Assembly (NCBI RefSeq): GCF_002633015.1
Contig: NZ_NSIU01000002.1
Location: forward strand, 62,001-126,000
Source: Sulfuricurvum sp. PD_MW2
GTDB lineage: Bacteria; Campylobacterota; Campylobacteria; Campylobacterales; Sulfurimonadaceae
DNA length: 64,000 nucleotides
Reading direction: 5' to 3'
The position numbers and the translations under genes are program-made. How positions within the stretch are numbered: position 1 is the stretch's first letter; each line of letters starts with the position of its first letter. A model generated the notes under the pieces. That model was not told where the DNA came from, did not search any database, and worked only from the letters and a program-made list of their open reading frames with translations. Positions 50,109-53,012 of this stretch are shown in pieces.

Positions 50109-51590
50109 TTATGCGCCCATTGGCGATGCGTTTTGAAGTTCACTCTCTTCAACACGGCGAGCACTTGTCATTGTTTTGTACATATTGTACGCGAACAAGA
50201 ACATACCTACGAGATACAACGTACCACCAACCGCGCGGATTGTGAAATATGGGTGCAATACAGCAACAGTATCGATGAATGAGTAAGCAAGGTTACCGAA
50301 CTCATCGTGTGCACGCCACATCATACCTTGTGTAATACCTGCAATCCACATAGATGTGAAATACAAGACAACACCAAGAGTTTGTACCCAGAATTGAGTA
50401 TTCATCAATGATTTAGAATAGATTTCGCGTTTGTATACACGTGGAGCCATATGGAACAATGCAGCCATAATCATGAATGCAACCCATCCAAGAACACCGT
50501 CATGTACGTGACCAACGATCCAGTCTGTAAAGTGAGCCAAAGCATTAACTGATTTAATCGCTTGGATCGGACCTTCAAGAGTTGAGAACATGTAGAACGT
50601 TGAAGCCAAGATCATGAATTTGATCAACGGACTTGCCGCTACTTGTTGCCATTCACCCTTCATGGTCAAAAGCATGTTGATCGCAGAACCCCATGATGGA
50701 AGGATCAATACAACCGAGAATACAGAACCCATTGTTTGCATCCAATCCGGTACTGTAGAGTAGATCAAGTGGTGTCCGCCTGCCCATAGGTAAACAAACA
50801 TCAATCCCCAGAACGCAAGAAGAGACAATTTATATGAATATACTGCTTGTCCTGATTCTTTTGGAAGGAAGTAGTAGATCATTGCAACGATAGGTACTGT
50901 AAATCCGAACGCAACCGCGTTGTGTCCATACCACCATTGAACAAGAGCATCATTGGTCCCTGAATACATAGAAACAGAGTGATACCAGTTACCGATTCCG
51001 CCAGAAGCAAAATATGTAGGAATTTCCATGTTGTTGAAAAGATACAACATAGCGATACCAAGGAATGTAGCAATGTAATACCAGATAGAGATGTACAGTG
51101 ATTTTTCACGGCGAATACCGATCAAACCGAACAATCCCATACCCCAAAGTACCCATACCACTACAACAGCGATATCGATTGGCCATTCAAAATCCGCATA
51201 TTCTTTACCGGTTGAGATACCGAGCAACAATGTCCCGACAACAGCAACTACAACCAAAAGATATACGAAAAAGTGCAATTTAGCAAGGAACATCAAGAAT
51301 TTTGATTCTGCCATAGACACTTTCAAGACACGTTGACCGACATAATACCATGTCGCCCAAATACCGCTAAGGGTAAATCCGAAAATTACTGAGTCAGTAT
51401 GCAACGGACGAAGACGGCTGAAATTGGTATATTCTGCCAACCCTTCTCCTAGCATTAAATTGACACCTGGAAACGCCATTTGCCACGCCAAAATAACGCC
51501 GACAAGCATCCCGACAATACCGAGAACAACAGTTACAAGCATAAACCACTTAGCAACCGTGTAATCATACTCCAATGGACGATTCTCCAT
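50109..51590 (-). CDS. ccoN: cbb3-type cytochrome c oxidase subunit I
   Basis: 493 residues with about twelve membrane helices. Heme and copper ligand histidines are seen in LRPLHTDSVIFGFTLSG, WWYGHNAVAFG, AGGHHLIYSTVPDW and FTDWIVGHVHDGVLGWV. It is the oxygen-reducing subunit of the high-affinity terminal oxidase. AAGGAGGT, a perfect SD, precedes the ATG. Confidence 0.98.
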   Translation of the reverse strand: MENRPLEYDYTVAKWFMLVTVVLGIVGMLVGVILAWQMAFPGVNLMLGEGLAEYTNFSRLRPLHTDSVIFGFTLSGIWATWYYVGQRVLKVSMAESKFLMFLAKLHFFVYLLVVVAVVGTLLLGISTGKEYADFEWPIDIAVVVVWVLWGMGLFGLIGIRREKSLYISIWYYIATFLGIAMLYLFNNMEIPTYFASGGIGNWYHSVSMYSGTNDALVQWWYGHNAVAFGFTVPIVAMIYYFLPKESGQAVYSYKLSLLAFWGLMFVYLWAGGHHLIYSTVPDWMQTMGSVFSVVLILPSWGSAINMLLTMKGEWQQVAASPLIKFMILASTFYMFSTLEGPIQAIKSVNALAHFTDWIVGHVHDGVLGWVAFMIMAALFHMAPRVYKREIYSKSLMNTQFWVQTLGVVLYFTSMWIAGITQGMMWRAHDEFGNLAYSFIDTVAVLHPYFTIRAVGGTLYLVGMFLFAYNMYKTMTSARRVEESELQNASPMGA

Positions 51591-51621
51591 TTACGACCTC
51601 CTTAAAGATTCAAAGCATAAG

Positions 51622-51699
51622 AGCCTATTAGGGCACCTTTGACTTCGCAATAGTGTGAAATCAAAGATGCCCTTAACACTTTTGTAACAAAAGTAGGCT
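51622..51699 (-). promoter_or_regulatory. Three-way-junction-like structure in the ccoN leader
   Basis: An outer stem AGCCTA/TAGGCT (51622-51627 with 51694-51699) encloses two hairpins. The first pairs 51631-51646 with 51657-51672 (14 pairs, two mismatches); the second pairs 51778 is not used, but 51678-51685 with 51687-51694 (8 perfect pairs). All lie 32-109 bases before the ccoN start. The function is unknown. Confidence 0.5.
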
Positions 51700-51847
51700 A
51701 TTAGACACTCTAATGATAGCAACCGGAGTATTTGAGGAATCTTAAATTATTAAATGTTTTTCATCATTTGAAAACTTAACGATTATTTTAAGTTTATTTA
51801 CAGAATTAGGGGTAAAAAAGTAACACATAAATATCAACTATAGATTT

Positions 51848-51878
51848 AAAATCGCTTTGGAACACCCAAAGCGATTTT
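51848..51878. terminator. Bidirectional terminator of carA
   Basis: A perfect 13-base-pair stem (51848-51860 with 51866-51878) with a 5-base loop and A/T tracts on both sides, directly after the carA stop at 51882. The 290-base gap to ccoN also holds the leader structure and a small inverted repeat TTTTCA-N5-TGAAAA near 51759. Confidence 0.85.
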
Positions 51879-51881
51879 TGA

Positions 51882-53012
51882 TTAACGCTGGAGAAGTTGA
51901 AGAAATTCGCTGAAGATGTAACGGCTCTCTTTTGGCCCTGGACTAGATTCAGGGTGATGCTGAACAGAAAAAACATGTCCGCTGTTATAGCGCAGACCTT
52001 CAATTGTGTTGTCAAATAAATTCACGTGAGTCACTTCCGCAATTTCACGTACCGATTCAGGAACATTATAATTGTGGTTTTGTGCCGTGATTTCAACCAT
52101 ACCGGTTTTGACATTTTTTACCGGATGATTTCCGCCATGATGACCGAATTTAAGTTTATGGGTATCGTATCCGTGAGCGATACTAAGGAGTTGATGTCCT
52201 AAACAAATACCAAACAACGGAATTTTACGTGCGATCAATTTTTTGATCTCCTCTTGTTCCCGTTTAAGGACTAGTGGATCTCCCGGACCGTTGGAGAGGA
52301 AAACACCGTCAATCTCTTTGGCATCGTAACGCTCAATCAACTCATCCGCGCTGAACGTATTTGGAAGAACTTCGACTTCCAATCCCGCTTCGGTCAGTTC
52401 ATTGAGAATATTGCGTTTTACCCCGAAATCGATTGCCGCGATACGTGCTTTCGGTGCAGGTGCATCGTTGTAACGGAAGTTAAATGGATCATAAATTCCA
52501 TTTCTGTGGGTATAGGCGCTCTTTGTACTCACCTCTTCGATATAGTTGATCTCTTCGATACGCGGAGAGTTTTCCAGCATTTTTTTAAGTTCATCTTTAT
52601 CAGAAACTTTTGTTGAAGCGATCATCATCATCGCCCCCTCGGTTCGGAGCATTTTAGTGATGTAGCGGGTATCAATATCACAAATACCGATAATGCCGTA
52701 TTGTTCTAAAAATGTATGCAGTGCCTCTTCTGCACGAAAATTTGAATGCTCTTTTTGATATTGACGAACAATAATCCCTTTACAGTGAGCTTTTGTGCTC
52801 TCCATATCTTCGGCATTTACGCCCACGTTACCGATTTCAGGCATTGTGAACGTAACGAATTGTCCTGCGTATGACGGATCGGTAATAATCTCTTGATACC
52901 CGCTCATAGAGGTATTGAAAACGATTTCACCCACCGCCGTTGTATCGGCACCAAAACTTTTGGCACACAAATAGGTGCCGTTTTCGAGATAAATCCATGC
53001 ATCGCGTAACAT
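51882..53012 (-). CDS. carA: Carbamoyl phosphate synthase small subunit
   Basis: 376 residues: N-terminal domain, then a class I glutamine amidotransferase with Cys270 in FGICLGHQ and His353/Glu355 in QHHPESSPGP. It supplies ammonia to CarB for arginine and pyrimidine synthesis. carB is not in the window. It overlaps the DUF507 gene by one base. Confidence 0.97.
   Translation of the reverse strand: MLRDAWIYLENGTYLCAKSFGADTTAVGEIVFNTSMSGYQEIITDPSYAGQFVTFTMPEIGNVGVNAEDMESTKAHCKGIIVRQYQKEHSNFRAEEALHTFLEQYGIIGICDIDTRYITKMLRTEGAMMMIASTKVSDKDELKKMLENSPRIEEINYIEEVSTKSAYTHRNGIYDPFNFRYNDAPAPKARIAAIDFGVKRNILNELTEAGLEVEVLPNTFSADELIERYDAKEIDGVFLSNGPGDPLVLKREQEEIKKLIARKIPLFGICLGHQLLSIAHGYDTHKLKFGHHGGNHPVKNVKTGMVEITAQNHNYNVPESVREIAEVTHVNLFDNTIEGLRYNSGHVFSVQHHPESSPGPKESRYIFSEFLQLLQR

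Follow-up and report, generated by a model that had tools for sequence, protein, structure and literature searches.

A stem-loop at the 5' end of the E. coli ompA mRNA stabilises the transcript. For H. pylori, a 5' UTR stem-loop is described as prolonging the mRNA half-life (PMC4843948), and the vacA leader of this species is of the same 5'-terminal kind, with a stem near the mRNA end and in front of an accessible ribosome-binding site (RBS). Short palindromic remnants of mobile elements, the Correia elements of Neisseria and ERIC of Yersinia, are described as forming hairpins in mRNA (PMC10969869). Operators of the OmpR/PhoB-type regulator HP1043/HsrA consist of two half-sites one helical turn apart (11-bp spacing); the consensus given for H. 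pylori is TTTAAG-N5-TTTAAG at -42 to -26 (PMC5253667, PMC8345958). Finally, trans-acting antisense RNAs may block an RBS by pairing with it.

Here we compare these systems with the leader of ccoN in Sulfuricurvum sp. PD_MW2, contained in a 64,000-nucleotide stretch of DNA analysed as a whole and called the window below. The gene encodes subunit I of the cbb3 oxidase, a main oxygen reductase of these bacteria. A literature search, read at the level of its listings, yielded nothing on post-transcriptional control of ccoN in the family of Sulfuricurvum. The features of the locus are collected in Table 1.

Table 1. Features of the ccoN locus (positions in the window)
Feature	Position	Strand	Basis or remark
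ccoN, cbb3 oxidase subunit I	50109..51590	-	TIGR00780, 672.5 bits against a cutoff of 583
Conserved unpaired RBS segment GCUUUGAAUCUUUAAGGAGGUCG	51594..51616	-	partly exact antisense to the hairpin loop in 11 relatives
P1 3' arm AGGCUCUUAUGC	51615..51626	-	folds and arm-permutation test
P3, large hairpin GGGCAUC...GGUGCCC	51630..51673	-	palindrome 51631-51672, at the TTAA of the direct-repeat site
Direct-repeat site TGTTACAAAAGTGTTAA, half-sites 11 bp apart, overlaps P2	51673..51689	-	genome site search
P2, small hairpin ACUUUUG-UUA-CAAAAGU	51678..51694	-	7 pairs
P1 5' arm GUCUAAUAGCCU, from the inferred transcript 5' end	51695..51706	-	folds and arm-permutation test
Extended -10 of the ccoN promoter, (GC)TATCAT	51713..51718	-	kept in promoters of 40 Sulfuricurvum and 30 further family genomes
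HP1043/HsrA-like box TTTAAG-N5-TCAAAT, about -40 to -24	51730..51746	-	sequence and family promoters

The upstream neighbour carA, ending at 51882, is on the same (-) strand as ccoN, hence the mRNA sense of the element is the - strand. The gap between the two genes, 51591-51881, is 291 bases long, close to the 290 of the initial annotation, and the element lies in it, upstream of ccoN, as had been claimed. Directly after carA there is a terminator-like 13-bp inverted repeat (51848..51878), which sets carA apart from the ccoN unit and is possibly the carA terminator; it was read from the sequence by eye and is absent from the output of the terminator scan.

When the promoters of 40 Sulfuricurvum genomes and of 30 out of 36 genomes of other family members are aligned on the -10 box, the extended -10 GCTATNAT is conserved. 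From its position we infer that the ccoN transcript starts near 51706, so that the whole structure would be transcribed. A start below 51622 is not indicated, since the conserved -10 lies upstream of the element. In the HsrA-like box at ccoN the first half-site is exact and the second is TCAAAT; a looser form of it, TTAAG-N5..7-(T/C)AAA, is present in 57 of the 70 family promoters in the same alignment.

Folding of the region 51622-51699 yields -35.0 kcal/mol as ccoN mRNA (z -6.66) and -31.6 kcal/mol as the + strand (z -6.36), and none of 200 dinucleotide shuffles was as good in either case. The structure is real, with the higher stability on the mRNA side. All three helices are present where the initial annotation had placed them: the outer stem, 51694-51699 with 51622-51627, the large hairpin, 51630-51673, and the small one, 51678-51694. 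The large hairpin is imperfect, as had been noted, but comprises 17 pairs and not 14, since the mRNA sense allows G-U pairing. In the 22 Sulfuricurvum leaders (out of 41) that have the palindrome and hence constitute the covariation set, 98.8% of pair cells are standard, and double changes occur at 12 pairs (4.8 in shuffles). The covariation score is 0.234 against 0.094 in shuffles, 0 of 500 being as high; as the counted cells come from related sequences, these shuffle counts are not probabilities. Relatives indeed have homologous structures in front of ccoN: a covariance model built on the leader gives a match at ccoN in 40 of the 41 Sulfuricurvum genomes, and its matches elsewhere in other genera include places with short palindromes. 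What had been called a three-way junction is a composite of the stem P1, the hairpin P2 over an operator-like site, and the MITE-like palindrome P3.

P1 is the outer stem prolonged by UAA/UUA and GU/GC, so that GU-C-UAA-U-AGCCU pairs with AGGCU-C-UUA-U-GC. Within Sulfuricurvum ten of its pairs are kept, in 98.2% of cells. In other genera the arms differ yet pair in place, for example AACCCUUU/AAAGGGUU, AGUCUC/GAGACU and GUCUAUAC/GUAUAGAC. Over 38 genomes from 17 genera, the mean energy of the P1 duplex is -8.58 kcal/mol within genomes and -5.12 kcal/mol for arms combined across genera. With one genome per genus the matched arms give -8.48 kcal/mol and the permuted ones -5.19 kcal/mol, with none of 2000 permutations as good. 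In this test seven of the 41 Sulfuricurvum genomes represent the genus; G069 and G098 were dropped for having no anchor, and G079, G095, G112 and G062 were not entered. The standard form of P1 is missing in G062, G079, G095, G098 and G112, the pairing being weak or absent in some family members, and one arm is altered in G010 and G022. By eye, and without a count, no P1-like stem was seen in leaders of the order's other families, 24 of which were inspected. P1 upstream of ccoN is conserved as an RNA structure across the family, through compensatory change. To this extent the suggestion that the element is an RNA regulator is upheld, a dedicated regulatory function being putative. Most family leaders have one stem only, with P2 and P3 absent or variable. 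In other genera, the P1 loop of two ccoN leaders (L270 and L271, from G106 and G109) contains unrelated long hairpins, as if this loop often accepted palindromes.

P2 is paired in 100% of cells, with double changes at four pairs, all of them from one genome, G006. It overlaps a response-regulator-like direct-repeat site, TGTTACANNNGTGTTAA, that recurs near copper-receptor-like genes. The window copy, TGTTACAAAAGTGTTAA, has two TGTTA half-sites with 11-bp spacing, and it agrees with the pattern of OmpR/PhoB-type operators in recurring upstream of genes. The exact site is present in 35 of the 41 Sulfuricurvum leaders. At one mismatch or less, sites were found in all 23 Sulfuricurvum genomes searched, 2-11 in each; the reversed control gives 0-5 per genome, therefore single one-mismatch sites can be due to chance. 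The genes next to the sites were read in three genomes. Among them are genes for TonB receptors with similarity to the copper receptor OprC (phmmer E 1e-13), which score under the curated copper cutoff; the copper assignments in general lie under such cutoffs. Genes for a copper-chaperone-like protein and a DsbD-type membrane protein also occur there, as does one for an ammonium transporter, and a DUF2202 gene precedes that of an OmpR-type regulator. The OmpR-type regulator found near a G016 site is a candidate binder of the direct repeat; the window's own genome encodes a homologue with 86% identity. Of 22 distinct leader sites, 14 have a spacer and flank that form a full hairpin, compared with 2 of 36 sites elsewhere. 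This contrast is suggestive only, since the leader sites share ancestry; it hints that P2 pairing is mostly specific to leader sites. The proposal of a transcription-factor site array thus fits P2, which coincides with a recurring operator-like site, but it fits this arm only.

Elsewhere in the window's own genome, TGTTACANNNGTGTTAA sites are situated near a copper-chaperone-like gene, an OprC-like receptor gene and an ammonium transporter gene (L247:1995-2031, L248:1962-1978, L246:2035-2051), and these may form a small regulon. Six other genomes (G004, G011, G015, G021, G025, G060) have a second copy of the direct repeat upstream of the ccoN promoter (L065, L072, L076, L082, L086, L098).

P3 matches the terminal inverted repeats of IS5-type elements and the short MITEs of relatives, so that the third proposal of the initial annotation, a mobile palindrome remnant, again suits one arm of the structure. 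Its arms in relatives include the exact repeat end GGGCACCTCTAAAA, from which the window copy has diverged (GGGCATCTTTGA). Other Campylobacterota carry many copies of this repeat end, such as 45+48 in G080 and 25+28 in G070 (0-3 per strand for reversed controls). It also terminates an element of 1.27 kb that encodes an IS5-family transposase (NF033581, E 1.5e-78) and has TTAA on either flank. Short palindromes of the P3 type are present in 22 of 121 family genomes and their reversed control in none; six of the 22 have the ccoN copy only. Copies outside ccoN with flanks show a perfect 4-bp duplication in 8 of 16 cases. The three ccoN copies examined retain three of the four duplicated bases, TTAA on the left and TAAT on the right, which fits an insertion into the TTAA of the direct repeat followed by loss of one base. 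The IS5-type end match, the TTAA site and the short palindromes of relatives make capture of a palindromic MITE the best reading of P3. A search of the window's own genome finds the pattern GGGCRYCT...AGRYGCCC only once, within the leader, and the repeat end gives no match at one mismatch or less; we hence rejected an active multi-copy repeat there and call P3 MITE-derived rather than an active member, as the family is multi-copy only in relatives. A literature search combining Campylobacterota, MITE and IS5 returned no paper. Among the other loci, L312 is an IS5-family element, and L314-L332 are many palindromic MITEs of 28-52 bp from Campylobacterota, having GGGCACCTCTAAAA-like ends and mostly TNNA duplications.

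The pattern is found at ccoN in 12 of the 25 Sulfuricurvum genomes searched. In the 22 leaders with the palindrome, the 17 pairs of P3 are held in 98.7% of cells, with double changes at eight pairs; palindrome-templated mutation could produce such changes without selection. The imperfect states in the mRNA sense comprise ten distinct G-U and two A-C (p = 0.04), a lean that a strand-neutral DNA process would not favour; strand-biased mutation remains a candidate source of this excess. In the other 19 of the 41 Sulfuricurvum genomes the palindrome is short, degenerate or absent, hence P3 is not essential. The palindrome type requires four changes on the ccoN tree, from which the fragment of G014 was excluded. 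This makes recombination of leaders likely: probably, leaders were exchanged or the palindrome was lost more than once. A degenerate variant of P3 is common to the distant genomes G005, G018 and G033 (L066, L079, L094), suggesting exchange of leaders between lineages.

The explanation that we prefer, with a probability of about 0.6, is that the element is a 5'-terminal leader that stabilises and insulates the ccoNOQP mRNA and was built over an operator and a captured IS5-type MITE. The old, family-wide stem P1, beginning at the predicted 5' end and closing just before an unpaired strong RBS, would shield the 5' end from decay and leave the RBS free. The DNA encoding P2 would serve a response regulator of the OmpR/PhoB type as a direct-repeat operator, which is also found at copper-uptake-like genes; it would link transcription to a metal or redox signal, the identity of the regulator and copper as the signal being suggested by the site neighbours. 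An IS5-type palindromic MITE, now P3, would have landed in the TTAA of this operator, inside the P1 loop, and may have been retained for extending the leader structure, either tolerated or used as an added helix. Combined, these parts would make transcription of the oxidase responsive and keep the 5' end of its mRNA protected and insulated.

An alternative arises from the segment 3' of P1, GAATCTTTAAGGAGGTCG, which has a second exact copy in 11 of the 41 Sulfuricurvum genomes (40 were searched, G063 being left out); for these 11 genomes no copies at one or two mismatches are listed. Read antisense, the second copy is the loop of a long stem in all 11 cases, and each loop is exactly complementary to the ccoN leader of the same genome over 18-21 nt, although the hairpins were located by searching for the RBS segment itself. 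The hairpin stem is paired in 89.4% of cells. In ten of the ten resolvable contexts the loop is 65-189 nt downstream of a gene for an oxidase-like membrane protein on the same strand, and the eleventh is at a contig end. In the clusters read at length, this gene comes after one for a bd-type-like, cytochrome-c-fused subunit, for which the support is a match to 5doq_A (E 5.7e-6) for one isoform and a Pfam bd model under the cutoff for the other. Two loci (L400:5870-10165, L401:4893-7526) contain such bd-like oxidase gene pairs, in two isoforms, each followed by a same-strand antisense stem-loop. The hairpin overlaps the start of a thioredoxin-like open reading frame (ORF) in 8 of the 11 genomes, and all eight genomes with that protein have the hairpin; no ORF was seen over it in the remaining three. 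Genes for CcoG-like proteins and TonB receptors are situated near the hairpins, and direct-repeat sites are present in the neighbourhood of several. The relatives' hairpin gives only chance-level matches in Rfam. A phage origin of the loop was dismissed, with no matches in viral contigs. We also set aside the second copy as an ordinary RBS on the opposite strand: no conserved ORF was seen after it, and the G-U states favour the antisense strand (8 distinct against 3). A minimal ORF just 3' of P1 in the leader itself, AUG-CUU-UGA, was discarded as well, several relatives having ACG there.

From these data one may suggest, tentatively, that the leader is a target: an RNA hairpin from bd-like oxidase operons would pair with the ccoN RBS, block translation and swap the oxidases, the segment after P1 being kept free for this pairing. 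The exact 18-mer copies and their complementarity speak for it, with duplex energies of -31.7 to -42.2 kcal/mol and shuffled means near -12, as does the position of the loops after oxidase-like genes. The stem also covaries, double-change cells numbering 15 where shuffles have 6.0 (0 of 500); however, of the five measures of covariation, two do not stand out from shuffles (5 against 3.8 for pairs with double changes, 15 against 14.8 for further pair types). Moreover, the overlap with the thioredoxin-like ORF means that coding or local regulation could explain part of the pattern, the RBS segment is conserved even in genomes where no hairpin was found, and the window's own genome has no copy besides that at ccoN at two mismatches or less. 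In G006, G007, G010 and G024 the ccoN RBS itself is altered. The fuller version, in which the leader and the hairpin together form an RNA oxidase switch, the hairpin of the bd-like operon silencing cbb3 translation in a copper-sparing swap, is rather doubtful and, as far as the search shows, not applicable to the window's own genome. Its background is that the bd-like oxidase is apparently copper-free and cbb3 copper-containing, and that copper-receptor-like genes near the bd-like operons share the response-regulator-like site with the ccoN leader. P3 may also be a neutral MITE fossil whose pairing comes from palindrome-templated repair or recent exchange of leaders and not from use. The terminal-repeat match, the lack or degeneration of P3 in 19 of the 41 genomes and its scattering on the ccoN tree agree with this, but we consider it unlikely: the palindrome is at the same site in each of the 22 leaders carrying it, it stays paired despite strong divergence, its imperfect states lean to G-U over A-C in the mRNA sense, and the own genome contains no other near-exact repeat end.

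P1 and P2 could also be nothing but DNA operators, an array of protein-binding palindromes whose RNA fold is a by-product, as the overlap of P2 with a recurring site and the HsrA-like box upstream might suggest. This is quite improbable, since a sequence-specific protein would not allow P1 arms that differ between genera while keeping their pairing; in addition, the site is rarely palindromic outside the leaders, and G-U pairs favour the mRNA strand. That the leader acts as a riboswitch with a bound ligand, or as an attenuator of transcription, is highly improbable. A three-way junction in front of the gene of a metal enzyme invites the idea, but Rfam gives no match at the gathering score anywhere in the window and, for the leader, sub-threshold, chance-level matches only; the terminator scan finds no intrinsic terminator or attenuator after P1 or P3; and P3 is dispensable and variable. 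A riboswitch was rejected because no conserved ligand-binding core is seen, most family leaders having a single stem.

Compared with the vacA-type stem-loops, the stabilising leader that we prefer would share the position of the stem and differs in that the stem spans 17 genera with changing sequence and encloses an operator and a captured palindrome in its loop; the effect on half-life is known for the H. pylori stem-loop and predicted from sequence for ccoN. Like the Correia and ERIC elements, P3 is a short palindromic mobile remnant in an mRNA hairpin; unlike them, it is embedded in an older conserved leader stem, its pairing is retained and no other copy was found in its own genome. With the IS5-family insertion sequences it has in common the terminal inverted repeat GGGCACCTCTAAAA and the TTAA target, but it keeps the paired ends only, 42 bp, with an imperfect duplication. 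The direct-repeat site has the half-site arrangement of the HP1043/HsrA operators; however, its half-site is TGTTA and not TTTAAG, and it lies within the transcribed leader. The relatives' hairpin resembles trans-acting antisense RNAs that block an RBS in having an exact antisense loop on a conserved stem, whereas its action is predicted only, and it sits a short way 3' of bd-like oxidase genes.

As a case of a mobile palindrome taken up into an older conserved RNA stem, the leader makes the domestication of MITEs in mRNA testable. If the antisense hairpin of the relatives works as predicted, it would constitute a base-pairing switch between two terminal oxidases.
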